Virus record (IMG/VR): IMGVR_UViG_3300035034_002090
Coordinates: 1 to 64,000 of that record
Origin: a virus
Reading direction: 5' to 3' (one strand)
DNA length: 64,000 nt
Both the position numbers and the translations under genes were made by a program. The notes beneath the pieces were generated by a model that ran no database searches, was not told the DNA's origin, and saw only the letters and a program-made list of their open reading frames with translations. Each line of letters opens with the position of its first letter. Position 1 is the stretch's first letter. Positions 1 through 11,512 of this stretch are shown here, piece by piece.

Positions 1-22
1 CTCCGGGCGCTGATGAGGCAGG
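1..22 (+). ncRNA. Partial type II hammerhead ribozyme (3' end only)
   Basis: The window opens inside the element. Visible are the 3' strand of stem I (1-9), the core CTGATGA (10-16) and the 3' strand of stem II, GGC (17-19). The downstream layout matches the complete copies: a short AC-rich spacer and then an SD (AAGGGAG) before a start codon. The GAAA side, stem III and the cleavage site lie left of the window. Identification rests on identity to the later full copies. Confidence 0.7.
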
Positions 23-48
23 CCGACAACAAACCAAAGGGAGATGCT

Positions 49-398
49 ATGCGACTTTCAACCAAGAGAAGATTTCACAACGCGCTCAGCGAAATGGGTG
101 GACCTGCGTCGAGAAAACAGAGTCCGATGAATTTGAGCACCATTGTGGCGAGTACGCCAACTATCGATTCATCTCAGAGAGAGGTGAGCCACTGAAAGCC
201 CAGATAAGCTACAGGTTCCGAGATCCTCATGTAGATGATCTTGTCGATGAAGATTGTGAGGACTGGACGGTTCTCATCTTCAGCGATGACAGGACGGGAA
301 CTGCTGGCAAGATGATCTACGACGAACATGCGTTAACGCAGAAGGAAGTCACCGCTCTCACCAAAGAAGCTCTTGGCAACTTTCAATGTGACGAGTAG
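49..398 (+). CDS. Small acidic protein, reading frame broken near the start
   Basis: An SD (AAGGGAG) leads to an ATG at 49, but that frame stops at 195. The frame that continues to the TAG at 396-398 is open from the window start and reads as an ordinary acidic phage protein (ends LGNFQCDE). It has no ATG, GTG or TTG near the SD. One extra G after the ATG (ATG-GCG-ACT) would join the start to the long frame and give about 117 residues. The gene is therefore either a one-base deletion, an assembly error, or uses a frameshift. It lies between two ribozyme elements, like its neighbours. Function unknown. Confidence 0.5.
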
Positions 399-461
399 CC
401 GAAATGCCCCGGTCCAACGGGGCATCTGGTAGGGGTGGCCTCCTGCCACTGAAGAGGCAGG
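398..461 (+). ncRNA. Type II hammerhead ribozyme, copy 2
   Basis: Stem II 5' strand GCC (398-400) begins on the last base of the preceding TAG stop. It is followed by GAAA (401-404), stem III TGCCCCG/CGGGGCA (405-411/418-424), A404 paired to T425, and cleavage expected after C426 (AUC). Stem I is TGGTAGG/CCTGCCA (427-433/442-448), then core CTGAAGA (449-455) and stem II 3' strand GGC (456-458). Core position 7 is A, which the CUGANGA consensus allows. Stem sequences differ from the other copies while pairing is kept. An SD and ATG follow at 489. Confidence 0.9.
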
Positions 462-488
462 CCATTTAATTTACATCAGGGAGGTATC

Positions 489-1124
489 ATGGATGAAGAG
501 ACACTAAGAAAATTCGGCACCAAGCACACGGTGTTCTGTAGTCCCGGAGCGGATTGCAGATATGTAGAAGGGCTGGGGGAGTTCAAGAATACCGAGGAAG
601 CTTTTTTAGCTGCGGCAAAGGCTGTGGGTAACGGGCTAAAGGATGTGGCCATGGCAACTGTCATGTTCGGATCTGACTTGATTGGATGTTTTCTGAATCG
701 CAACGGAAACCCTGTGCCGGTGACGGGAACGTTTGCGAATGACGAGCACCTGAACATGGCGGTTCAGGCGCAGTACAAATTCATCCTCCATCGCACCCGG
801 CAAGGGAGTAAGGATTGGGCCAAGGAGTATCTGTCTGAGGTCGGGCAGAAGGTCGGATTCGAGTTCGATGGCGAGCCTCACGAGTCCGATGTGTACGACG
901 ACGGATTCGATCTCGACATGATCGTTGGATGGAAGGGTACGGGACTCACCCTGTCCATCGTGTTTGAGGAAGGCAACCCTCACCTCTATGCTACAGAGTC
1001 TGGAGGTTCGGTGGGCCACCCTTGGCATGATGAGTTCTACGACATCGAACTCACTGAAGCTGTCGAGCTGCAAGAGATCGTCGATGAGATCACGTGGGCG
1101 TTCGAGAAGCCTCGGGATCTCTAG
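489..1124 (+). CDS. Hypothetical protein, 211 aa
   Basis: The ATG is preceded by CAGGGAGG with good spacing. The protein is soluble and acidic, with no membrane segment, cysteine cluster or motif I can recognise. The C-terminal half is rich in Asp/Glu and aromatic residues. It sits between hammerhead copies 2 and 3; its TAG stop (1122-1124) contributes its G to stem II of copy 3. Placement among short early-type genes suggests a host-takeover or anti-defence role, which is inference only. Confidence 0.85.
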   Translation: MDEETLRKFGTKHTVFCSPGADCRYVEGLGEFKNTEEAFLAAAKAVGNGLKDVAMATVMFGSDLIGCFLNRNGNPVPVTGTFANDEHLNMAVQAQYKFILHRTRQGSKDWAKEYLSEVGQKVGFEFDGEPHESDVYDDGFDLDMIVGWKGTGLTLSIVFEEGNPHLYATESGGSVGHPWHDEFYDIELTEAVELQEIVDEITWAFEKPRDL

Positions 1125-1191
1125 CCGAAACGCGAGTGCACACGATTGCACTCGCGTCTGACTGAATTAACCATCAGTCACTGATGAGGCA
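1124..1191 (+). ncRNA. Type II hammerhead ribozyme, copy 3
   Basis: GCC (1124-1126, sharing the G of the TAG stop), GAAA (1127-1130), a 10-bp stem III CGCGAGTGCA/TGCACTCGCG (1131-1140/1147-1156) with hexaloop CACGAT, and UC (1157-1158) with cleavage after C1158. Stem I is a perfect 7-bp TGACTGA/TCAGTCA (1159-1165/1174-1180), then CTGATGA (1181-1187) and GGC (1188-1190). The core matches the consensus at every fixed position. The stem III tip contains the 16-bp repeat that recurs at 39867 and 44182. Confidence 0.93.
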
Positions 1192-1216
1192 GGTTAATCA
1201 CACAAGGGAGGAACTA

Positions 1217-1522
1217 ATGTTTATCATCGCGCATGACGGACAGACCACGATCATGAGAGTGCAGCGCTACCGGAATCACTCAGGGCGGTTCCTTATGCTG
1301 AAAAAGAGCGCTTCCAGCAACGCCATGTATAGCACGAGTAGCGAGTTCGGAAACCTTTCCGATGCGAAGAGGCGTCTACTAGATCGAACCAAAATTACCG
1401 GGCAAAGAAACCCGATGGATGCGCTCTTCGACATGCTCACTCAGGACATGTGGATCTACGACAGCAAGAGTGAGTCGGCCAAGAAGATCTACGACATCGA
1501 AGACCAATGGGTCGATGGCTGA
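1217..1522 (+). CDS. Hypothetical protein, 101 aa
   Basis: Start chosen at the ATG after CAAGGGAGGAAC; an upstream in-frame ATG lies inside the ribozyme core and has no SD. The protein begins MFIIAHDG, is mixed in charge and has no recognisable domain. It is flanked by hammerhead copies 3 and 4, so its mRNA could be released as a single-gene unit. Function unknown. Confidence 0.85.
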   Translation: MFIIAHDGQTTIMRVQRYRNHSGRFLMLKKSASSNAMYSTSSEFGNLSDAKRRLLDRTKITGQRNPMDALFDMLTQDMWIYDSKSESAKKIYDIEDQWVDG

Positions 1523-1535
1523 TTCATGGCCTGAA

Positions 1536-1595
1536 GTCGAAACGCCCTTCGGGGCGTCTGCCAGAAGGCAACCGAGCTGGCACTGATGAGGCAGG
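1536..1595 (+). ncRNA. Type II hammerhead ribozyme, copy 4
   Basis: Stem II 5' strand GTC (1536-1538) pairs with GGC (1590-1592) through one G-U wobble. GAAA is at 1539-1542; stem III CGCCC/GGGCG is capped by a TTCG loop (1543-1556); UC at 1557-1558 with cleavage after C1558. Stem I is TGCCAG/CTGGCA (1559-1564/1577-1582) and the core is CTGATGA (1583-1589). It lies 13 nt after the upstream stop and 23 nt before the next ATG, with an SD between. Confidence 0.93.
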
Positions 1596-1618
1596 TTAAT
1601 CACACAAGGGAGGACGCA

Positions 1619-2083
1619 ATGTCTTTACAAAACCAGTACAACGATTTCAAGCGACACGCCGAATCAGGCGCGTTGTCCGACCCCGACCCACGGCGCTGCA
1701 AGTGTCATGGTGGAGGATGGATTCTTTCCGACTTCGACACGTTCCATAAGTGCCCCTCGCACACCGGTCGATACCATCCCGAGAACGACCACATTGAGGG
1801 CAGGACCTATGAATGGTTCGGAGGCTGCCAATGGGAGCGCGTCGGAGAGAACGTCTGGCTTCTCAGGGCGTACTACCATGGATACGGCAAGGACGCTTAC
1901 CATGAAGCTGTGGAGCGCGGAGAAGAAGTCGTCGATGATGCCCCGACATGGGTCGAGTACACCGTTGACGAAAACGGCCGAGCCTACATGAAGTCGGGCT
2001 GGCACGAAGGCGTCAAGGAATGGGAGAGTGTCAAGGTGCTTCGCAAGATCGTCTCTTGGCAGTTCAAAGAAAACTTGGGGTAA
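1619..2083 (+). CDS. Hypothetical protein with N-terminal Cys/His cluster, 154 aa
   Basis: The start is the ATG after CAAGGGAGGACGCA; the longer frame starting inside the ribozyme is rejected. Residues about 25-45 carry CKCHGGGW and HKCPSH, a CxC...CxxH arrangement that could bind zinc. The rest is acidic and rich in Tyr/Trp. No family is recognised. It follows hammerhead copy 4 and is followed after 3 nt by a small HExxH protein. Confidence 0.85.
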   Translation: MSLQNQYNDFKRHAESGALSDPDPRRCKCHGGGWILSDFDTFHKCPSHTGRYHPENDHIEGRTYEWFGGCQWERVGENVWLLRAYYHGYGKDAYHEAVERGEEVVDDAPTWVEYTVDENGRAYMKSGWHEGVKEWESVKVLRKIVSWQFKENLG

Positions 2084-2086
2084 GTG

Positions 2087-2314
2087 ATGTTGAGCAGAGA
2101 TTCTGAAGTAAAGGACTTTCCGATTCTTGAGAGCCTCATCGACGGCGAACACATCTTGGTCAAGGAGGACCTCGAAGGGCAGAATGTAGTGGACGGTTCA
2201 GTTGTGCTTGGCATGAAAGCTGGGCCATCAATCTGCGTCGACAACGCCTGTCATGAAATGGCGCACCTCATCGAAATAGATGAAGCCCGCATCACTTCTG
2301 TGAATTGGGGGTGA
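2087..2314 (+). CDS. Small HExxH protein, possible first half of a split gene, 75 aa
   Basis: The protein ends with a Cys-His-Glu-Met-Ala-His zincin-like HExxH motif followed by LIEIDEARI and stops after NWG. The downstream frame (2319) continues DRVEIPGL and RVWAIQWHIQQYI. The two pieces look like one protein joined by a +1 shift at GGG-TGA. As two genes, the second would start at GTG 2319 with GGGGGTGAT as SD. The active-site role is inferred from the motif only. GTG at 2084 is an alternative start. There is no hammerhead between this gene and its neighbours. Confidence 0.65.
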   Translation: MLSRDSEVKDFPILESLIDGEHILVKEDLEGQNVVDGSVVLGMKAGPSICVDNACHEMAHLIEIDEARITSVNWG

Positions 2315-2318
2315 TCGT

Positions 2319-2639
2319 GTGGAGATACCGGGCTTACGAGCTTACAACGAGTTCCGTTCGTCAGATCACATCGATCGCGAGATTCGCGTCTGGGCCATCC
2401 AGTGGCATATCCAGCAGTACATCGAAAAGCCCGTGACCTTCGATAAGCTAGGAAGGGTGGGTTACTGGCTTCCTGATATTTTTAGGCTCAAAAAGCGGGG
2501 CCTAAAAAGCACACTCGATAGGGGCACGGTGACGTCTTGGTTCGCCGAGGCCATCGAAAGAGAGAGTGAATCCCACACCATAGAAGGGATCCTTGAAGAG
2601 CTGGAGAGACGCAGAAGCATCATTGCCTCTCGAAAGTAA
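2319..2639 (+). CDS. Hypothetical protein, probable continuation of the preceding HExxH gene, 106 aa
   Basis: The only nearby start is GTG 2319, 4 nt after the previous stop and in the +1 frame. A purine-rich GGGGGTGAT precedes it and would allow coupled translation. The N-terminus (residues 1-35) reads as a natural continuation of the upstream protein. The C-terminus is a charged helix with a run of arginines (LEELERRRS). Function unknown. I cannot decide between coupled genes, a programmed +1 frameshift and an indel. Confidence 0.65.
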   Translation: MEIPGLRAYNEFRSSDHIDREIRVWAIQWHIQQYIEKPVTFDKLGRVGYWLPDIFRLKKRGLKSTLDRGTVTSWFAEAIERESESHTIEGILEELERRRSIIASRK

Positions 2640-2642
2640 GGC

Positions 2643-2670
2643 TTGACACGCCCTTTCATTTAACTAGTAT
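2643..2670 (+). promoter_or_regulatory. Sigma70-type promoter
   Basis: TTGACA (2643-2648), 16-nt spacer, TAGTAT (2665-2670), 31 nt before the ATG at 2702. It shares the extended start TTGACACG and a TTTC in the spacer with promoters at 6098 and 9970, suggesting one phage promoter class. It would give the second half of the ribozyme cluster its own transcription start. Confidence 0.7.
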
Positions 2671-2701
2671 TGACGTAACTCAGGAATGGAGATCAAGGAA
2701 G

Positions 2702-2995
2702 ATGTCAACGAAGGGAGAACGAAGGGTGCGAGGAATGAAGCTCGCCGCGATGAATGGTGGCAGGCGATGGACCAGCACCGTCAAAATCAAGGCCATCCTC
2801 GAAAACGATGAGCTTGAACCGCAAGAGTCGATGAACCTGATCGCCAAGAAGATCAAACGCTCTGGGGCGTTCTCTGAGATTCTATGCGAAGAGATCCAGA
2901 CAGCAGCAGACGAGAACGACGTCGAATGGTTCGATGACGTTCTGTCTGCCGCATATGAAGAAGCTGACGAGAAAGGCATCTGGATGGGTCCCTGA
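2702..2995 (+). CDS. Hypothetical protein, 97 aa
   Basis: First gene after the promoter at 2643; SD AAGGAAG directly upstream. The N-terminal 30 residues are basic (STKGERRVRGMK) and the remainder is strongly acidic and likely helical. This charge split would suit a small nucleic-acid- or protein-binding factor, but no family is recognised. A hammerhead starts 14 nt after its stop. Confidence 0.8.
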   Translation: MSTKGERRVRGMKLAAMNGGRRWTSTVKIKAILENDELEPQESMNLIAKKIKRSGAFSEILCEEIQTAADENDVEWFDDVLSAAYEEADEKGIWMGP

Positions 2996-3009
2996 CTCAA
3001 AGTAGCTTA

Positions 3010-3066
3010 GCCGAAACGCCCTCCGGGGCGTCTGGCGAGCATTGACCAGCTCGCCATTGATGAGGC
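3010..3066 (+). ncRNA. Type II hammerhead ribozyme, copy 5 (core C3-to-U variant)
   Basis: GCC (3010-3012), GAAA (3013-3016), stem III CGCCC-TCCG-GGGCG (3017-3030), UC (3031-3032), a perfect 8-bp stem I TGGCGAGC/GCTCGCCA (3033-3040/3049-3056), then TTGATGA (3057-3063) and GGC. The first core base, normally C3 paired with G8, is T here. A U-G pair may lower activity strongly. All helices are intact, so this is either a slower ribozyme or one in early decay. Confidence 0.82.
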
Positions 3067-3096
3067 AGGTCACACATTCATTCAAAGGGAGGAAAG

Positions 3097-3621
3097 ATGA
3101 CCATTTATTCAATCGGAAGCGGCGGGCTCAAACCATGCAAGAAGCTGAGCCTCCACGAGAACATCGAGTGCTACATGGGCGATTCGGATAGTCCCAAGCA
3201 CATCGTTATCACTCGCGTAACCGAGGACCGGGTGTATTTCACTCAACGCTACAGTGACTACCGGGAAGAGCGATTCGAGTCTCGGCCCATCATTGACGAT
3301 CTCATCAAGAACGGAACCACAACGTGGCTGGAGGGCTACGGCCCGAAGCATTTCCCGGAGCTTGCCGAGAGCCTTAAGCGCTTGCTCGATGGTGGCGAGC
3401 CAGACAAGGTTGACCCGAAGGACTTCGAGTTCGTTACGGCAGCAATGGCTCCGGCCGAAGGCGACGAGCACGCTGTCTGGAGGGCGGCCAAAAGCTACGG
3501 GGTGATGCACGGCTACAACGAGGATGAGGGTTACTTCTCAGTGAGGTGCTCTCGCCAAGTCGTCGAGGACATCCGAGAAGACGAGCAATTCACTGACGTC
3601 CGTATCATCAAGGACGCATAA
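3097..3621 (+). CDS. Hypothetical protein, 174 aa
   Basis: SD AAGGGAGG lies 6 nt before the ATG. It is a soluble, mildly acidic protein with no motif I recognise; residues 105-130 are Ala/Glu-rich. It sits between hammerhead copies 5 and 6. The stop is TAA, followed by a 4-nt gap to the ribozyme. Function unknown. Confidence 0.85.
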   Translation: MTIYSIGSGGLKPCKKLSLHENIECYMGDSDSPKHIVITRVTEDRVYFTQRYSDYREERFESRPIIDDLIKNGTTTWLEGYGPKHFPELAESLKRLLDGGEPDKVDPKDFEFVTAAMAPAEGDEHAVWRAAKSYGVMHGYNEDEGYFSVRCSRQVVEDIREDEQFTDVRIIKDA

Positions 3622-3624
3622 CCA

Positions 3625-3693
3625 ACCGAAACGCGAGTGCACACAATTGCACTCGCGTCTGCCCAACACTGACCGGTCGGGCACTGACGAGGC
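3625..3693 (+). ncRNA. Type II hammerhead ribozyme, copy 6
   Basis: ACC (3625-3627) leaves two stem II pairs and one A-C mismatch with GGC (3691-3693). GAAA (3628-3631), 10-bp stem III CGCGAGTGCA/TGCACTCGCG (3632-3641/3648-3657) with loop CACAAT, UC (3658-3659). Stem I is TGCCC/GGGCA plus a mismatch and two further pairs (3660-3683). Core CTGACGA (3684-3690), N7 = C. Stem III is nearly identical to copy 3, suggesting recent duplication. Confidence 0.87.
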
Positions 3694-3719
3694 AGGTCAC
3701 ACAAATCAAGGGAGAACAG

Positions 3720-4097
3720 ATGGAAAACGAATTCAATTATCGAATTGCTGAGGTCACGTCGTTAGCGAAAATCACACTCAGATGGAAGCGTCATCTGCTT
3801 CTGGCAATTACCGAGGATGTCAGGGAGAATATCGAAGGCATCGAACACACCCATGTCGCCGAAGACCAGAACCAAAATCACACCGTGTGGTTCGAGTTCG
3901 ATGACGGCACGAAGGTCTATGCAGAGCACGGTGGATTCGCCGAGAGGTTCGACACTTGTATCGGCTTGAGTAAGAAAGAGAAGGGCGACTACGACACAAG
4001 CTGGGGACGCTTCAGGTATGACATCGAGGACGACTGGCAAGAGGTTGCCCGGAAGTTCACAAACTACCTTCGTGAGCAACGCAACAAACTGAGTTGA
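3720..4097 (+). CDS. Hypothetical protein, 125 aa
   Basis: SD AAGGGAGAAC before the ATG. Acidic soluble protein with a central segment rich in Asp/Glu (residues 55-70) and no recognised domain. It lies downstream of hammerhead copy 6. Its stop codon is part of a 7-bp hairpin (4089-4109) that abuts the next gene's start, with no ribozyme in between, so this pair would stay on one mRNA. Confidence 0.83.
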   Translation: MENEFNYRIAEVTSLAKITLRWKRHLLLAITEDVRENIEGIEHTHVAEDQNQNHTVWFEFDDGTKVYAEHGGFAERFDTCIGLSKKEKGDYDTSWGRFRYDIEDDWQEVARKFTNYLREQRNKLS

Positions 4098-4109
4098 GTC
4101 GAAACTCAG
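4089..4109 (+). promoter_or_regulatory. Intercistronic hairpin
   Basis: CTGAGTT (4089-4095) pairs with AACTCAG (4103-4109) around loop GAGTCGA. It includes the stop of the upstream gene and touches the GTG at 4110. It replaces the ribozyme and SD found at the neighbouring junctions. A role in coupling translation is inference. Confidence 0.4.
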
Positions 4110-4370
4110 GTGCTCTACACGCTTGAAGACTCAACCAATGGATACCCAATGGAAGACGCAAACTATACCGTATTAACTGGCTCCGAAGGCGCAGCAGACT
4201 TCACCCTGTACGAAGATGCCGTAGACTTCGTTAACAACGAGGCTGACGAATACGAAGATGATGGATACGAATGCGATCGATCTTTGGCATCGGCCAATAA
4301 TCTTTACGCGGTTCGATGTGAGAAGAAAGGGGAATCGGTCGACATCCAGATCATTCTCAAAGAGGACTAA
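4110..4370 (+). CDS. Hypothetical acidic protein, 86 aa
   Basis: The start is uncertain. GTG 4110 sits right behind a hairpin without an SD; ATG 4149 (73 aa) is the alternative. The product is very acidic (runs of Asp/Glu with Tyr) like other small proteins in this cluster. No domain recognised. Hammerhead copy 7 follows 6 nt after the stop. Confidence 0.7.
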   Translation: MLYTLEDSTNGYPMEDANYTVLTGSEGAADFTLYEDAVDFVNNEADEYEDDGYECDRSLASANNLYAVRCEKKGESVDIQIILKED

Positions 4371-4376
4371 TCAAAA

Positions 4377-4437
4377 GCCGAAACGCTCCGGGTAACCGGG
4401 CGTCTGGCTGAGTTGACCACCAGCTACTGAAGAGGCA
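4377..4437 (+). ncRNA. Type II hammerhead ribozyme, copy 7
   Basis: GCC (4377-4379), GAAA (4380-4383), stem III CGC-CCGG/CCGG-GCG with a bulged T4387 and a GTAA tetraloop (4384-4402), UC (4403-4404). Stem I TGGCTG/CAGCTA with one G-U pair (4405-4410/4421-4426), CTGAAGA (4427-4433), GGC (4434-4436). Stem III and loop differ from all other copies yet stay paired, which supports selection on structure. Confidence 0.9.
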
Positions 4438-4466
4438 GGTCACACATTCATTCAAGGGAGGCCGCC

Positions 4467-4880
4467 ATGCAGCAAGACAACAAACAGCCAATCAGCCTCA
4501 AGGGATTCGAAGGACAAACCGTCCAATTCTTTGATCCTTGGGAACTCGGCCGAGATGCCGACTACTTCTACTTGGTTCGATTCGTCGGATCGATGACCAA
4601 CTACGTTATCCCGAGCGACAACAACCACGAAGACGGATACCAAGAGGTTACCGAGGATGTCTTCAGGACTCCGGAAGGCGAACGCTATCGCATCATCGAG
4701 GGCACTCCTGAGTACGATGACTATCAAGAGGACATCGACAAGCATATCATCGGCGAATGCGATCGCATTCGCTATCATGAAGATGGATTCTACTACGACA
4801 CCGAAACCATCGAGGTCACCCAACGTGTCGATCGTGGGGACATCACGTTCGAGCTTGCTGAGGTGAGGCCCATTCGATAG
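4467..4880 (+). CDS. Hypothetical acidic protein, 137 aa
   Basis: SD CAAGGGAGG upstream of the ATG. The protein is acidic and tyrosine-rich throughout (DYQEDIDK, YYDTET), without cysteines pairs or membrane segments. No family recognised. It follows hammerhead copy 7 and is followed by a zinc-ribbon-like gene after 9 nt. Confidence 0.83.
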   Translation: MQQDNKQPISLKGFEGQTVQFFDPWELGRDADYFYLVRFVGSMTNYVIPSDNNHEDGYQEVTEDVFRTPEGERYRIIEGTPEYDDYQEDIDKHIIGECDRIRYHEDGFYYDTETIEVTQRVDRGDITFELAEVRPIR

Positions 4881-4889
4881 GAGCACGAG

Positions 4890-5108
4890 ATGAGCTACAA
4901 ATGCGAAGACGTGAACAGATATGGGCACGCCATGTATGACTACTGCTGGCAAAACAAGCATCAGTCAAAAGGCACAGCTCATAAGGTAGACCCCGACACA
5001 GGGCTACCAGCTTGCGGGAGAGTAAGGGATTTGGGGTCGCTAGAATTCACAGATCACCTCCCCGGCGAACCACACTGTAAGATATGCTTCAAAGGCAAGG
5101 ACATCTGA
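4890..5108 (+). CDS. Small protein with C-terminal CxxC, 72 aa
   Basis: SD AGGAGCACGAG precedes the ATG. The C-terminus has HCKICFKG, and further cysteines lie at residues 5, 19 and 42, so a partial zinc site is possible. Its TGA stop (5106-5108) is directly followed by the degenerate hammerhead at 5109, and the next gene's ATG (5084) lies inside it. Function unknown. Confidence 0.75.
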   Translation: MSYKCEDVNRYGHAMYDYCWQNKHQSKGTAHKVDPDTGLPACGRVRDLGSLEFTDHLPGEPHCKICFKGKDI

Positions 5109-5539
5109 GCCGAAACGCCCTTAGGGGCGTCGTCACCGGGTGCGTTCCGGTGGCATTGCTGATCGTGCCCGTTTCGGACGTGTCCAGTGGAGGGGTTGGC
5201 GTCTTGACGGTACGTCGAGGTATCGACCCCCAAAAAGGAAAGCTCGCCCTCCCGGGAGGTTTCATCGAGACCGGAGAAACATGGAAGTCGGCCGCTGTTC
5301 GAGAGCTACAGGAAGAAACGGGCCTTCACTATCCAGCTAGCTCTGTAACATCATTCGACATCAAGGATGGTCGATCCACGGTGCTTCTTTTCGGACTACT
5401 ATCAGATGAGGTGCGCTCGTCTGAAATAGTCGAGCAATTCACGCCCAACCGTGAAGTAACAGGACTTGAGATCATCACCGAACCCCGCGAACTGGCTTTT
5501 CCTTCGCACACCGAAGTCATCAAACAGTTTTTCGATTGA
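5084..5539 (+). CDS. Nudix hydrolase
   Basis: A Nudix box GGFIETGETW...RELQEETG matches GX5EX7REUXEEXGU, so the enzyme should hydrolyse a nucleoside diphosphate linked to another group with Mg2+. Substrate unknown. The ATG at 5084 overlaps the upstream gene by 25 nt and makes the N-terminus read through a degenerate hammerhead (5109-5154). GTG 5150 is a shorter alternative, which would leave the RNA element outside the coding part. Residues 24-151 carry the Nudix fold. A second Nudix protein lies at 23459. Confidence 0.85.
   Translation: MLQRQGHLSRNALRGVVTGCVPVALLIVPVSDVSSGGVGVLTVRRGIDPQKGKLALPGGFIETGETWKSAAVRELQEETGLHYPASSVTSFDIKDGRSTVLLFGLLSDEVRSSEIVEQFTPNREVTGLEIITEPRELAFPSHTEVIKQFFD
5109..5154 (+). 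ncRNA. Degenerate hammerhead ribozyme, copy 8
   Basis: GCC (5109-5111), GAAA (5112-5115), stem III CGCCC-TTAG-GGGCG (5116-5129), UC (5130-5131) and an 8-bp stem I GTCACCGG/CCGGTGGC (5132-5139/5147-5154) are intact. The next bases are ATTGCTG, so CUGANGA and the GGC strand are missing. It should not cleave. The region is read as the Nudix N-terminus. Confidence 0.7.
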
Positions 5540-5572
5540 GCACGTCAACCATTCTAACACCAAGAGGCCATT

Positions 5573-6085
5573 ATGTTGCCCTACTGGAAGCCCAAAGAAA
5601 CATGGCAAGAGCTACAGTCCGAAGAAGCAAATGGCTTTGATGCACTCACTCAGGCCATCTCGCTGTCAGCCAAGTGTTGCCGGTTCTATTACGTCTTTGA
5701 TAGCGATCAGCTGACCGAAGAGAACCGAAGCAACTGGCTTCTCTGGGGCAGCATGGCTCACGACATCCACGCCATCGATGATGACGGCCCGCACCCCAAA
5801 GATTGGTCTCTTCGGGACGGGTCATGCGCATTCGTGGCAGGACAGTTCGACCTCGTCAGTGAAGGCGACTCCACCACCTCGCCCATCAGTCTGTCTGTAT
5901 ATGAGGTGGTCGAGCATGATGAATGGTCCAAAGACAGACCCATCTTCAGCGTAAGCAGCTCTATGAAGGCAGGAGAAGGGCTCATTAGCCTGTACAAATG
6001 TCTATTCAATCATGAGGTGAGCCGCAAGAAGCTCATCGTGGGCAGCGCGGTAGGCATATTGCGAGAGGTCCACGACCGAAGATAA
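5573..6085 (+). CDS. Hypothetical protein, 170 aa
   Basis: The ATG follows CCAAGAGGCCATT. Soluble protein with one CC pair (residues 35-36) and no recognised domain; the C-terminal end is basic. It is the last gene before the promoter at 6098. There is no ribozyme on either side, so it would share an mRNA with the Nudix gene. Confidence 0.8.
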   Translation: MLPYWKPKETWQELQSEEANGFDALTQAISLSAKCCRFYYVFDSDQLTEENRSNWLLWGSMAHDIHAIDDDGPHPKDWSLRDGSCAFVAGQFDLVSEGDSTTSPISLSVYEVVEHDEWSKDRPIFSVSSSMKAGEGLISLYKCLFNHEVSRKKLIVGSAVGILREVHDRR

Positions 6086-6097
6086 ACAACAACACAT

Positions 6098-6126
6098 TTG
6101 ACACGTCAGTTTCGTTATGTTAGGTA
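6098..6126 (+). promoter_or_regulatory. Sigma70-type promoter
   Basis: TTGACA (6098-6103), 17-nt spacer, TAGGTA (6121-6126). The first bases TTGACACGT and the spacer end TATGT match the promoter at 9970. It would transcribe a roughly 160-nt leader before the ATG at 6292. Confidence 0.65.
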
Positions 6127-6188
6127 AGGTGAGGCCGGATAAGGAAGTCCGGCCCAGCGGGGACACTATCGACCATACGGAGGTTGGC

Positions 6189-6305
6189 ATGAAGCCTGTC
6201 AAGATGGATCACTCTCTACCGCGACATCCCCGCATGGTTGCTGGGGATCTGATGAGGCAGACCGCGATTTATTTTACAAAAAGGAATAGCCATGGAAGAG
6301 CTTAA
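6189..6305 (+). CDS. Possible 38-aa leader peptide
   Basis: ATG 6189 has a good SD (CGGAGGTTGGC) and its frame ends 14 nt inside the next gene. The product is basic and His/Pro-rich. The same stretch contains a hairpin TCCCC/GGGGA followed by CTGATGAGGCAG (6249-6260), identical to the hammerhead 3' core, but no GAAA half pairs with it. It may be a leader peptide or simply a relic of an element. Confidence 0.3.
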   Translation: MKPVKMDHSLPRHPRMVAGDLMRQTAIYFTKRNSHGRA

Positions 6306-7731
6306 AAAAAATATCCACCAGAAGGTTGAAGAAATTCAAGAGATTCAGTCCGAGTATGAGGCCCTAGTCGATAAGATGAAGGCAGCAGGACCAGCAAAAG
6401 CAAGCCAGATGGCGCAAGAGTTCAGCACGCTGGCTGAATCTCAGCAGAATCTTTCAACTGAAATTGGTGAAATGATTGTCGAGTGGGTTTCACAAAGCGG
6501 CACTTTGAGCTTGTCTCATGGCGACGAAGAAAGCAGCACACAATCGCCAGAAGTCGCAAACATGAAGAAGCCTGCGCGACGGGTCTACACACCTTCCGAC
6601 GATGAACCAAGGGCCAAGAAGCTCGGAACTGTACGGCATCATGCCTCCAGCTCCAACAGGGATCCGGACCAGCAGTGGACGCAGAAAGATTCGAACAGGA
6701 TGATTCATGCCTACTCCGAGGTCTTTCCGGACATCATTGAGAAGCTCGGTGAGCCTGAGAAAGATCTGGGCTCAATGACTCCCATCAGCAACGAACTAAG
6801 GGTCCTTACTCAGGTTGTAGACGGGAGAGAATCGTGGCGCTGGCTTCCCACAGCTGCCCAAAAGGCACTCGTAAGTTACATCGTTGCACGGGGCAGGCGT
6901 CTTCAAGATCAGGCGGATCGTGGAACCCTCAGCCTCATCAACGGACAAGACAAGCTCGACGCCCTGTTTCCGAGGCTTACGGCGTTCACGAAGACCGAGA
7001 TGAGGGAGTTCATTCACGGTCTTGCCCGAGGTCACGATCCGAAGCGAGGCTCGTGGCTCGAAGATGCGCGTTACTGGCTCGAAGAGATCAACCGGCTTCT
7101 CGACAGGGGTGGATCCGAAGAGCAGCAGTTCAACCCGGACATCGCCCTGAACGCGCTCGACGAATTTATGGAGACTCGTCAGCCGAACAGCGGCAAGATC
7201 AAAGAGTACGTCGCTGATATGATCGAGTCGGGTATGCCTGTTGATGACCCCAGATTTCTGAAGCGTCTCGACGAGCATAGAAACATTTTCAGGGGCTCTA
7301 AATTCAAAACCCTTAGAGATGCTTTCAGGGAGCAAGAAAAGACCGAAGAAGAGGTGGAGACGCAGTCCCTGATGACGCACTGGCCCTACCTGTCGGAGAC
7401 CCTCGGCAAGCGCGCCTTCATGACTGGAGGCGAGCCCCGGGAGGATGCCCGACGAAACATCGAGGACGCGTTCGGATTCGACAGTCTGGACTGGTGCCCG
7501 TCTGACCAGCACAGGAAGATGAAGTCCTACGCTAAAAGGATCATTGGTGAGAACTATGACATCGCCATCCTGCTGACCAGCCTCATGGGCCACGATACCA
7601 ATGTCATCAGAGACGCGTGCAAGCGTGTCGGTATCCCGTGCGTCTTTGTCGCGCAGGGGTATGGGCCGTCTCGTATCGCGCATTCGATCGAGAAGAACTT
7701 CGCTCACGCGGAGGCAGCTGTAGCAGGTTAA
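6292..7731 (+). CDS. Coiled-coil protein with DUF2325-like C-terminus, 479 aa
   Basis: SD AAAAGGAAT precedes the ATG. Residues 1-70 form a likely coiled coil. A low-complexity linker follows to about 120, then a helical middle. The last 60 residues (ILLTSLMGHD, then CVFVAQGYG) resemble the DUF2325 Rossmann-like fold, in which a His-Asp pair follows a hydrophobic strand. DUF2325 proteins are seen near mobile elements and defence genes, but the function is unknown. Transcribed from the promoter at 6098; followed by a zinc-ribbon gene and two recombinase genes. Confidence 0.8.
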   Translation: MEELKKNIHQKVEEIQEIQSEYEALVDKMKAAGPAKASQMAQEFSTLAESQQNLSTEIGEMIVEWVSQSGTLSLSHGDEESSTQSPEVANMKKPARRVYTPSDDEPRAKKLGTVRHHASSSNRDPDQQWTQKDSNRMIHAYSEVFPDIIEKLGEPEKDLGSMTPISNELRVLTQVVDGRESWRWLPTAAQKALVSYIVARGRRLQDQADRGTLSLINGQDKLDALFPRLTAFTKTEMREFIHGLARGHDPKRGSWLEDARYWLEEINRLLDRGGSEEQQFNPDIALNALDEFMETRQPNSGKIKEYVADMIESGMPVDDPRFLKRLDEHRNIFRGSKFKTLRDAFREQEKTEEEVETQSLMTHWPYLSETLGKRAFMTGGEPREDARRNIEDAFGFDSLDWCPSDQHRKMKSYAKRIIGENYDIAILLTSLMGHDTNVIRDACKRVGIPCVFVAQGYGPSRIAHSIEKNFAHAEAAVAG

Positions 7732-7785
7732 CCCAAATGCACCCTCTGGATTTTCTGGCGGGTGCCCAATCTACCGGAGGACGGC

Positions 7786-7983
7786 ATGAATGAAGATGAG
7801 CTATGTATGGGTAGTGGCCGAACTTTGGCCATGACTCAGGCGGACGTTGAACGTCACAAGAAGGGCGTCAAGCTAAAGTGCCCGGTTTGCGGCCGACGAC
7901 TAACCCCGACGCTTATGAGGGATCCAAGCGGCAACTACGAAGGCGAGCTGCCGGATCACAAAGCCAAGGAGGCTGCATCATGA
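7786..7983 (+). CDS. Small zinc-ribbon-like protein, 65 aa
   Basis: Start at the ATG after CGGAGGACGGC; a GTG at 7762 is less likely. One CPVC knuckle (residues 34-37) is followed by RRLTPT, as in half of a zinc ribbon. The TGA stop overlaps the next ATG (ATGA), so it is translationally coupled to the recombinase-like gene. Function unknown. Confidence 0.75.
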   Translation: MNEDELCMGSGRTLAMTQADVERHKKGVKLKCPVCGRRLTPTLMRDPSGNYEGELPDHKAKEAAS

Positions 7984-8357
7984 AAAAAGTTATTGGCTAT
8001 ACACGCATACCGCCGGGAGGCGATGAAGCCCTTCTCCAAAAGCAGGCTAGCGACATCGAGTTATTCTGCAAGAATTGGGATTTCAAGCTTCTTCGCATTG
8101 AAAGTGACATCGCCGAGGGTGTCGGCAAAACAGGGGGCCGACCTGAAGGCATGAGAGCGGTCCTAGAATCGATCGCCAGAAACGAGGTCATGCATCTCGT
8201 CATCGCCGACCTCGTGTGTATTTCAGATTCATTTGAGGGCGCGCTGGACTTCAGGGACCGTAACTTTGGATACGGCCCACGAGGAATCTGGGTGGTTAAC
8301 TCACACGGAAACCTCCCATGGGCGTTTCAAGGAAAGGAGGGATTTGCCGATGTCTGA
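7980..8357 (+). CDS. Serine-recombinase-like protein lacking catalytic residues, 125 aa
   Basis: The protein aligns over its length with the N-terminal catalytic domain of the next gene (IGYTRIPPG against IGYARVSTE). The nucleophilic serine is proline here, and the DRLTR arginine motif is replaced by DLVCIS. The DNA-binding region is absent. It cannot cut DNA, but the fold could still form mixed dimers. ATG shares ATGA with the upstream stop and the end overlaps the active recombinase by 8 nt, so all three are coupled. Confidence 0.82.
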   Translation: MKKVIGYTRIPPGGDEALLQKQASDIELFCKNWDFKLLRIESDIAEGVGKTGGRPEGMRAVLESIARNEVMHLVIADLVCISDSFEGALDFRDRNFGYGPRGIWVVNSHGNLPWAFQGKEGFADV

Positions 8358-10066: not shown

Positions 10067-11512
10067 ATGGAATGGTTTCACGTAGACAAGGAAGGTCTGA
10101 GGAAAGTTCTAGAGCGAAGAGGCAAAGAGTTCGTCGCTCTTGAGCTTGTTCAAAACGCGTGGGATGAGGACGTCCAGCGCGTAGACGTCACCCTGTCGTC
10201 CATTGAGGGGCGACGAGGACGAGCTGAGCTGGTAGTCCGAGACGATGACCCGGATGGGTTTGTTGAACTCTCTCATGCTTGGACGCTCTTCGCTGAGAGC
10301 GAGAAGAAATCCGACCCCGAGAAACGAGGTCGGTTCAATCTCGGAGAGAAGCTTGTCTTGGCACTTTGCGAAAAAGCCGAAATAACAACCACCACGGGTC
10401 GGGTCATCTTCAGCGAGAAAGGTCGGACCCACGGACGTAAGCGCACAGACGAAGGGTCGGTGTTCGAGGGTGTCGTCTTGATGACGAAGCCCGAAGTCGA
10501 GAAGACCGTCGAAGCTCTACGGACCCTTCTTCCGCCCGAAGGCATCAGCACGTACATCAATGGCGTCCTGCTCAATCGCCGAGAGCGGCTGTCAGAATTC
10601 GAAGCCACACTGGCCACGGAGATCTCTGGAGACGAGGGCCTTCTCAGGCCCACGCGAAGGAAGACGATCATCGAGGTCTACGAGGTCAACGAAGGGGAAG
10701 AGGCAACCCTTTACGAGATGGGCATTCCCGTTGTTCCGACCGGAGATCGGTGGCACATCAACATCTTGCAGAAGGTCCCTCTCAATATGGACCGGGACAA
10801 CGTAACGCCCAGCTACCTTCAGAATGTTCGGGCGCTCGTTGTTAACGAGATGGCCGACAACCTCAGCGATGAGGACTCGGCAGAGGGCTGGGTCACCGAC
10901 GCTATCAGTCATCGCGACGCAAGCCCTGACGCCGTCAAGAGGGTTATCGAAAAGCGCTTCGGAAAGAAGACCGTTATCTTCGACCCGAGTGACCCGGAAT
11001 CCAACAAGCGCGCTGCATCTGAGGGATACGCAGTCGTCCACGGCGGCACGCTCCCCGGGAAAGCTTGGGAGAACATCAAGAAGCACAACATCATCCGACC
11101 GGCGAGCAAGGTCACACCGTCGTCCTCTCCTTACAGTGACGACCCGAACGCAAAGCCTGTGAAGGTCTACGATAAGGACGAATGGACAGACGGTATGCGA
11201 CGGGTTCACGACTACACTGAGCGTGTGGTCAAGGCCGCGCTCGGTTTCACCATCGACATCAGGTTCGTGCTCGGCCCAATCCACTGGAGCGCCTGCTTCG
11301 GCGGACGTCGATTGGACTACAACGTGCGATCGCTCGGCAAGGCTTGGTTCAAGAAGGTCTCACGAGAGAAACTCGATGATCTCATCATACACGAGCTGGG
11401 CCACCACTACTGTGGGGACCATCTGTCCAGCGAATACTACAAGGCACTGACTAGAATCGGCTCCAAATTCATTACGGCAGCACTCGAAGACCCTGAGCTT
11501 TTTGAACTGTAA
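10067..11512 (+). CDS. GHKL-type ATPase fused to a C-terminal HExxH zinc protease, 481 aa
   Basis: Start at ATG 10067 after AAAGGGAGG. An N box ELVQNAWDE (26-34), a G1-like DDDPDGF (59-65) and GRFNLGEK (88-95) give the ATP lid layout of Hsp90/MutL/MORC-type GHKL ATPases. HELGHH (442-447) near the C-terminus is a metallopeptidase signature. The middle region (120-430) is unassigned. Coupling an ATP-driven clamp to a protease suggests conditional proteolysis, perhaps in defence or counter-defence (inference). It has its own promoter and a strong hairpin after its stop. Confidence 0.85.
   Translation: MEWFHVDKEGLRKVLERRGKEFVALELVQNAWDEDVQRVDVTLSSIEGRRGRAELVVRDDDPDGFVELSHAWTLFAESEKKSDPEKRGRFNLGEKLVLALCEKAEITTTTGRVIFSEKGRTHGRKRTDEGSVFEGVVLMTKPEVEKTVEALRTLLPPEGISTYINGVLLNRRERLSEFEATLATEISGDEGLLRPTRRKTIIEVYEVNEGEEATLYEMGIPVVPTGDRWHINILQKVPLNMDRDNVTPSYLQNVRALVVNEMADNLSDEDSAEGWVTDAISHRDASPDAVKRVIEKRFGKKTVIFDPSDPESNKRAASEGYAVVHGGTLPGKAWENIKKHNIIRPASKVTPSSSPYSDDPNAKPVKVYDKDEWTDGMRRVHDYTERVVKAALGFTIDIRFVLGPIHWSACFGGRRLDYNVRSLGKAWFKKVSREKLDDLIIHELGHHYCGDHLSSEYYKALTRIGSKFITAALEDPELFEL

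Follow-up and report, generated by a model that had tools for sequence, protein, structure and literature searches.

Near the start of a viral record, type II hammerhead ribozymes (HHR-II) lie between small, unrelated phage genes, and at two of the junctions the last base of a stop codon is also the first base of a ribozyme. The question raised by this locus is whether such contact is part of a general rule of placement and, if so, what the ribozyme does between the two genes that it separates. The sequence considered here, called the window, consists of bases 1–64,000 of the 173,237-base IMG/VR record IMGVR_UViG_3300035034_002090, and the HHR-II array is at its beginning.

A descriptor of our own design (GAAA, stem III ≥4 bp, UH, stem I ≥4 bp, CUGANGA or UUGANGA, and stem II ≥2 bp) identified six complete copies in the window, at 398, 1124, 1536, 3010, 3625, and 4377, and gave no hits in 1.45 Mb of mono-shuffled sequence. 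Two damaged copies are also present (Table 1). The whole record has eight matches to Rfam family RF02276 at E ≤ 1, all between 397 and 6266; three of these, all in the window, pass the 37-bit cut-off, three fall just under it, and the two broken copies score far less. A search with a 211-aa gene product found only one related contig, L160, which is identical to the window at 11,120 of 11,121 positions and carries 1,078 extra bases upstream, window base 1 being L160 base 1079. It adds two copies on that side: a complete one at 319 and copy 1 at 1031, which the descriptor misses because of a mismatch in stem I.

Among ten array proteins compared with Pfam, the sole match above cut-off is to NUDIX (5084–5536), and three of eight larger proteins compared with PHROGs match helicases and an exonuclease. 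No match to window positions 1–8000 was found among 50,697 phage records by nucleotide search, and a tRNA search of the window found none. The NUDIX gene (5084–5539) overlaps and follows the broken copy 8, as though it had replaced the 3′ half of the ribozyme; that copy retains stems I and III and its stem II strand but has lost the core.

Table 1. Ribozyme copies and adjoining translation signals at the start of the window (positions in the window; RF02276 scores in bits).
Feature	Position	Strand	Remarks
Copy 1, 3′ part: core CTGATGA 10–16, stem II strand GGC 17–19, tail	1–27	+	Remainder precedes record start, visible in L160 from 1031
TAG stop of the open frame before copy 2	396–398	+	Its G opens stem II
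HHR-II copy 2: stem II GCC 398–400/GGC 456–458, pseudoknot tail to 464	398–464	+	Predicted cleavage after C426; 50.1 bits
SD GGGAGG 479–484 and ATG 489–491 of gene 489–1124	479–491	+	
TAG stop of gene 489–1124	1122–1124	+	Its G opens stem II of copy 3
HHR-II copy 3: stem II 1124–1126/1188–1190, 7-bp pseudoknot ATTAACC/GGTTAAT	1124–1198	+	Predicted cleavage after C1158; 36.9 bits, just below cut-off of 37
SD GGGAGG 1206–1211 and ATG 1217–1219	1206–1219	+	
HHR-II copy 4	1536–1599	+	TGA ends 13 nt before (1522); predicted cleavage after C1558; 40.7 bits
HHR-II copy 5, core TTGATGA (C3 to U)	3010–3072	+	TGA ends 14 nt before (2995); 39.1 bits
HHR-II copy 6	3625–3701	+	TAA ends 3 nt before (3621); 35.1 bits
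HHR-II copy 7	4377–4444	+	TAA ends 6 nt before (4370); 36.1 bits
Degenerate copy 8: GCCGAAAC, stems III and I (as in L160 copy 319), without CUGANGA at the core place	5109–5167	+	Right after TGA 5106–5108; 16.4 bits
Partial copy: stem I, CTGATGAGGC, tail	6205–6266	+	Before gene 6292–7731; 5′ half non-canonical; 20.5 bits

The complete copies have the parts expected of the family. In copies 2, 3, 4, 6, and 7 the CUGANGA core and the GAA–A/U–H elements are in the correct order, with stem II open and stems I and III closed by loops; copy 5 has UUGAUGA instead. A pseudoknot of 4–7 Watson-Crick pairs between loop I and the tail can be drawn for all seven complete copies of the window and L160, and the paired segments vary from copy to copy (TTAACC/GGTTAA, TGACC/GGTCA, TGGCC/GGCCA, TGCGTT/AACGCA). 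Over a larger collection of 227 copies, loop I–tail pairing of at least 4 bp occurs in 49%, as against 22% or less when loops and tails are randomly re-paired. Minimum free energy folds of the six window copies, computed on ranges that leave out the last base of stem II, recover stems I and III, with stem III stable, but lack the 3-bp stem II in five cases, and copy 7 folds otherwise.

A preliminary description of this DNA had placed the start of stem II on the G of the upstream TAG at copies 2 and 3, and this is exact to the base (Table 1). The ORF ending at 1124 spans 489–1124. The frame ending with the TAG at 396–398 is open from base 3, with no start codon after its SD sequence, and is the same in L160; the ATG at 49 is in a different frame, which stops at 195. 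Possible alternatives for 3–398 are a broken gene, a frameshift, or an assembly error common to L160. Taking the window and L160 together, an in-frame stop lies from −1 to +3 nt of four of the seven complete copies, compared with 12 of 349 random anchors (binomial, 4e-5). The gaps of the other window copies are given in Table 1; those of the two L160 upstream copies are 0 and 6 nt, and that of degenerate copy 8 is 0. Sharing of a base with the stop is therefore one extreme of a narrow range rather than a fixed rule within the array. Three downstream tracts that had been called constant vary as well: AGGCAGG is found in copies 1–7 but not in L160 copy 319, which has GGCAACGC; CACAC is in copies 3–7 only, not copy 2; and GGGAGG is in copies 2, 3, 4, 5, and 7, its place being taken by GGGAGA in the remaining two (1 and 6). 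AGGCAGG is made up of the 3′ strand of stem II (GGC), an A, and the start of the pseudoknot tail, and so belongs to the ribozyme rather than to a ribosome binding site.

Placement at stop codons extends well beyond this array. Three pattern scans of IMG/VR, with the 5′ flank left free, yielded 90, 61, and 6 stretches with 220 descriptor hits, and one scan of GTDB genomes yielded 22 stretches with 30 hits. When duplicates (>75% identity over 60 upstream bases), window copies, and copies near a contig end were dropped, 186 IMG/VR and 30 GTDB copies remained; the patterns favor the common GCC/GGC, CUG subclass, and the counts are not a census. With a stop defined as in frame and preceded by at least 40 open codons, 140 of the 186 IMG/VR copies and 16 of the 30 bacterial or archaeal ones from GTDB have a stop from −1 to +3 nt of stem II. 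The corresponding values for random anchors on the same strands are 282/9235 (3.1%) and 36/1487 (2.4%), and 3.4% for the window with L160. When each contig contributes a single copy, the counts are 86/114 and 8/18. Stops at +4 to +8 account for another 20 IMG/VR copies and one GTDB copy, and those at +9 to +13 for eight and four. When the three sets are pooled, window included, 160 of 223 copies are at −1 to +3, with 40 sharing a base with the stop; the median distance is 1 nt (quartiles 0–4), 216 copies have a stop within 150 nt, and none of the 223 has one further inside the ribozyme (−6 to −2). An earlier stop caller, based on the longest frame within 300 nt, had put 110 of 192 copies at −3 to +3 and 47 apparently far away; it was replaced, since in some of the far cases another frame had been picked.

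The layout is thus real, and recurs far beyond chance on unrelated viral contigs, on bacterial and archaeal ones, and in annotated phages, so that "modular mRNAs," the term first suggested for it, seems a fair one. Some of the preference lies in the sequence itself. In the 60 of 216 IMG/VR and GTDB copies with no qualifying stop at −1 to +3, purines predominate immediately ahead of stem II, with A the usual base at the next position upstream, and 22 of them hold a stop triplet in some frame. As the bias is also found where there is no adjacent stop, it is partly intrinsic, making stop triplets likelier at this position.

The upstream side is more varied in annotated phages. A short-query search led to Streptomyces phages of the Arquatrovirinae, and 12 named ones were analyzed, with coverage of 21 kb for R4, of the whole of Celia except 494 bases, and of ~13–14 kb for each of the others. 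They contain 74 copies, which all lie in the early arm and on its minus strand. By deposited CDS ends, 35 of these are 6 nt or less from a stop and 39 are 8 nt or more away. Ribozymes remote from stops and with no fixed layout had been named beforehand as what would refute the preliminary description. This is partly the case: remote copies do occur, but many of them have an arrangement of their own. A promoter-like motif, TG[ACT][AT][AT][AGC]TG[TAC], defined after the sequences had been seen and looked for in the 40 nt upstream, precedes 21 of 35 unique far copies, compared with one of 30 near ones and 175 of 7400 random 40-mers (2.4%). In 10 of the 21 it is exactly 5 nt before the ribozyme. 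Five far copies directly follow another ribozyme, and 11 far canonical copies have neither motif nor tandem partner.

The downstream side, by comparison, is regular. A start codon is found within 80 nt of stem II for 69 of the 74 Streptomyces phage copies (median 26 nt, quartiles 24–28), and an SD-like stretch and start codon follow stem II in 194 of 213 copies (median 25 nt). With regular starts and a varied upstream side, the constant partner of the ribozyme is the leader of the downstream gene, while the upstream partner may be a stop codon, a promoter-like motif, or another ribozyme.

Ten of the 12 phages (L195, L197–L203, L205, L206) also have HHR-II-like elements, 18 in all, with one extra base between CUGANGA and the 3′ strand of stem II. 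The promoter-like motif is upstream of 17 of these, compared with 24 of 79 canonical copies (Fisher, 5e-7, for phages that are related to each other); for the lone exception, in Omar, the script had anchored on an earlier GGCGAAAC. The extra-base elements may cut poorly, and are possibly a slower variant for the promoter side. In Omar (L199) and Sentinel (L200) some annotated starts fall inside ribozymes, so that N-termini such as MAAPALMSQA are artefacts of annotation, read from stem I and the core.

The reading that we favor, with a probability of about 0.6, is that HHR-II acts as a modular self-processing 5′-leader element of the following gene, cutting between stems III and I, as a kind of natural RiboJ. 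Judging from sequence, messages shared between genes are probably cut into single-gene ones by these elements. The ribozyme would occupy the first free base after the end of the previous unit, usually a stop codon (0–6 nt away, often with its last base shared); in the Streptomyces phages a promoter would also serve as anchor, with the predicted transcription start at or near the first base of the ribozyme. Where transcription continues from the upstream gene into the ribozyme, the RNA would be cut at the border of stems III and I. The message on the upstream side would then end in the stem III hairpin, 23–35 nt from the first ribozyme base in the window, with a 2′,3′-cyclic phosphate, and the downstream one would begin with a 5′-OH and the stem I hairpin, followed by the core, the pseudoknot tail, the SD sequence, and a start codon ~25 nt past stem II. 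Since both new ends would be folded, and perhaps protected thereby, a compact polycistronic RNA could give rise to single-gene messages with leaders insulated from the gene upstream. The ribozyme could stand directly against the stop, since it requires no 5′ flank and, unlike a terminator, could still fold and cleave well after the ribosome and the polymerase had moved on.

The regular start spacing speaks for this leader-processing role, as do the intact cores and loop I–tail pairing, the placement at stops, the promoter-like motif as a second anchor, the Caelum and TrvxScott pair described below, and the published cleavage of tandem hammerheads. The copies with no qualifying stop close by, the far canonical ones with neither motif nor tandem partner, and the small share of Rfam matches above cut-off (three of eight) count against it. 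So do the changed core base of copy 5 and the broken copies at 5109 and 6205–6266, which suggest that cleavage is perhaps not essential everywhere.

The strongest competing explanation, which we rate at a little under even odds, is that contact with the stop has no function at all: in compact genomes spare bases are deleted, and any intergenic element comes to touch the stop. The 3′ side is short too, with its median of 25 nt, the ribozyme does not require a 5′ flank, and A-rich flanks alone favor TAA or TAG at that place. Compaction explains the contact without added function and is compatible with leader processing. It does not account readily for the terminator-like hairpins at the same loci, of which just two of 127 are at −1 to +3 of a stop; for the 97 whose nearest stop is no more than 150 nt away, the median distance is 30 nt. 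These hairpins may however avoid ribosomes for a reason of their own. A terminator presumably must fold before polymerase departs and would be spoiled by a ribosome close by, while a ribozyme can wait, and this ability to fold late may be why the two kinds of element differ in their distance from stops.

It has also to be considered whether the junctions are primarily sites of recombination for gene swapping, with self-cutting secondary, although this seems unlikely. Halves of different copies could still form a whole ribozyme, as the hairpins are local and stem II is nearly constant. Blocks are indeed shared among array copies: the stem III part is 94% alike in copies 3 and 6 and 91% in copies 4 and 5, and the stretch from core through tail to SD is 92% alike in copies 3 and 4 and 86% in copies 5 and 7, while flanks are about 43–63% alike. 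The nearest relatives of the two parts differ within the array, and broken halves are found at 5109 and 6205. Matched pairing of loop and tail across unrelated viruses, on the other hand, points to selection on the RNA. Another contig, L009, has nine HHR-II on a single strand in about 4.2 kb, and the types of their stems III and I are visibly mosaic.

A terminating ribosome on a stop codon covers about the next ten bases, and cleavage might be gated in this way, although we consider it no likelier than the recombination sites. The ribosome would cover the stem II strand and GAA, so that folding would be possible only if the upstream gene were not being finished, and cleavage would report on upstream translation. 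The wall at the stop is exact, with no copies at −6 to −2, but compaction predicts the same wall. The bases covered would be the 5′ strand of the core, and the position abutting the stop is one that terminator-like hairpins avoid; about half of the Streptomyces phage copies are nevertheless away from a stop. A more elaborate version appears slightly less probable still: stop and ribozyme would form one device, in which the finishing ribosome masks the 5′ core strand and termination licenses or delays cleavage, the phage choosing one message or two at each junction, with a promoter-side module that begins at the first transcribed base and is often tuned down by the extra core base.

That the ribozymes serve mainly the upstream gene, making its 3′ end in place of a terminator hairpin by means of stem III and the cyclic phosphate, is improbable. 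Tight contact with the stop and a stable stem III would fit, but where a copy comes right after a promoter-like motif or a second ribozyme, there is no separate upstream message that it could finish, and start codons follow such copies too.

In the preliminary description the cassette of gene, ribozyme, and SD sequence was thought to have been copied as a unit, which the unrelated array genes, the mosaic ribozyme parts, and one clean site with and without a ribozyme do not support. No paralogy was detected among the different array genes (best E 0.17, the only strong match being one frame listed twice), and among 197 pairs of copies from the same contig elsewhere, with genes called for part of the copies, two have related upstream genes (L009, L065) and none related downstream ones. 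The clean site is in the Streptomyces phages Caelum and TrvxScott, which have two neighboring genes in common. The first ends with the same TACTGA in both, and the SD-to-start sequence of the second is nearly the same (GGAGACnACCGTG in TrvxScott, GGAGACACCGTG in Caelum); between them Caelum has a ribozyme and TrvxScott just ten bases. Several other apparent pairs of this kind proved false, either because the annotated start of the partner was inside a ribozyme or because the partner had an extra-core-base variant. Despite the tail and SD common to copies 3 and 4 and the two paralogous upstream pairs, duplication of whole cassettes is thus very improbable, and for this window largely refuted, given the lack of paralogy and a difference confined to the ribozyme between an unchanged stop codon and SD.

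Arrays of HHR-II have been known since 2011. Perreault et al. (2011; PMC3088659) described type II hammerheads that flank genes of prophage operons in clusters, of the same type as here, with the loop I–tail pseudoknot and with small, variable genes among the tandem copies. Tandem sets from three operons cleaved in vitro, and one of them in E. coli too; the pseudoknot matters for cleavage speed, and the authors propose that long phage RNAs are processed to single-gene mRNAs. No layout rule was found there and the term "stop codon" is absent in the main text of that paper, whereas distances to stops, promoter-like motifs, and starts were measured here. The same paper reports a halovirus transcript whose 5′ end maps no more than 3 nt from where the hammerhead cleaves (HHphage, HF1/HF2). 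HHphage is likewise just before a phage gene start, but as described there it is a single variant element of an archaeal virus, with a core insertion near C3 and no array at stops. RiboJ, a synthetic insulator (Lou et al., 2012, as cited in PMC7536230), is also a hammerhead in a 5′ UTR that normalizes the leader, comparable to the leader position at a regular distance found here; it is engineered, placed after promoters, and has an added hairpin, whereas the present elements are natural, of type II, and mostly within operons at stops. The HDV-like theta ribozymes of gut phages (PMC10879173) are self-cleaving phage RNAs too, but of another class, tied to tRNA-based recoding.

Within the literature searched, from which subscription papers were mostly absent, no report of HHR-II placement at stop codons or promoters was found, and what is new here is the placement rule and a set of phages suited to test it. 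A 2017 review lists the role of prokaryotic hammerheads among the open questions of the field (PMC6155905). That unrelated viruses share such a placement points to a role where two translation units meet. Phages that can be grown in culture (Celia, Janus, Paedore, R4, and others), carrying as many as ten strict copies apiece, together with the natural gene pair that has or lacks the ribozyme, make the question testable; if the leader-processing reading is true, insulators of leaders existed in nature long before synthetic biology devised them.

A few copies in other settings may be mentioned. In a Deltaproteobacteria MAG (L163, near 1951), an HHR-II follows what appears by eye to be the 3′ end of a tRNA rather than a coding gene. 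A contig of Singulisphaera sp. GP187 (L182) has six HHR-II within 8 kb, several with a stop 0–2 nt upstream, and this locus is perhaps a prophage or its remains. In MW202801, an antirestriction-type Podoviridae record, a ribozyme copy is located 1 nt past an annotated stop.
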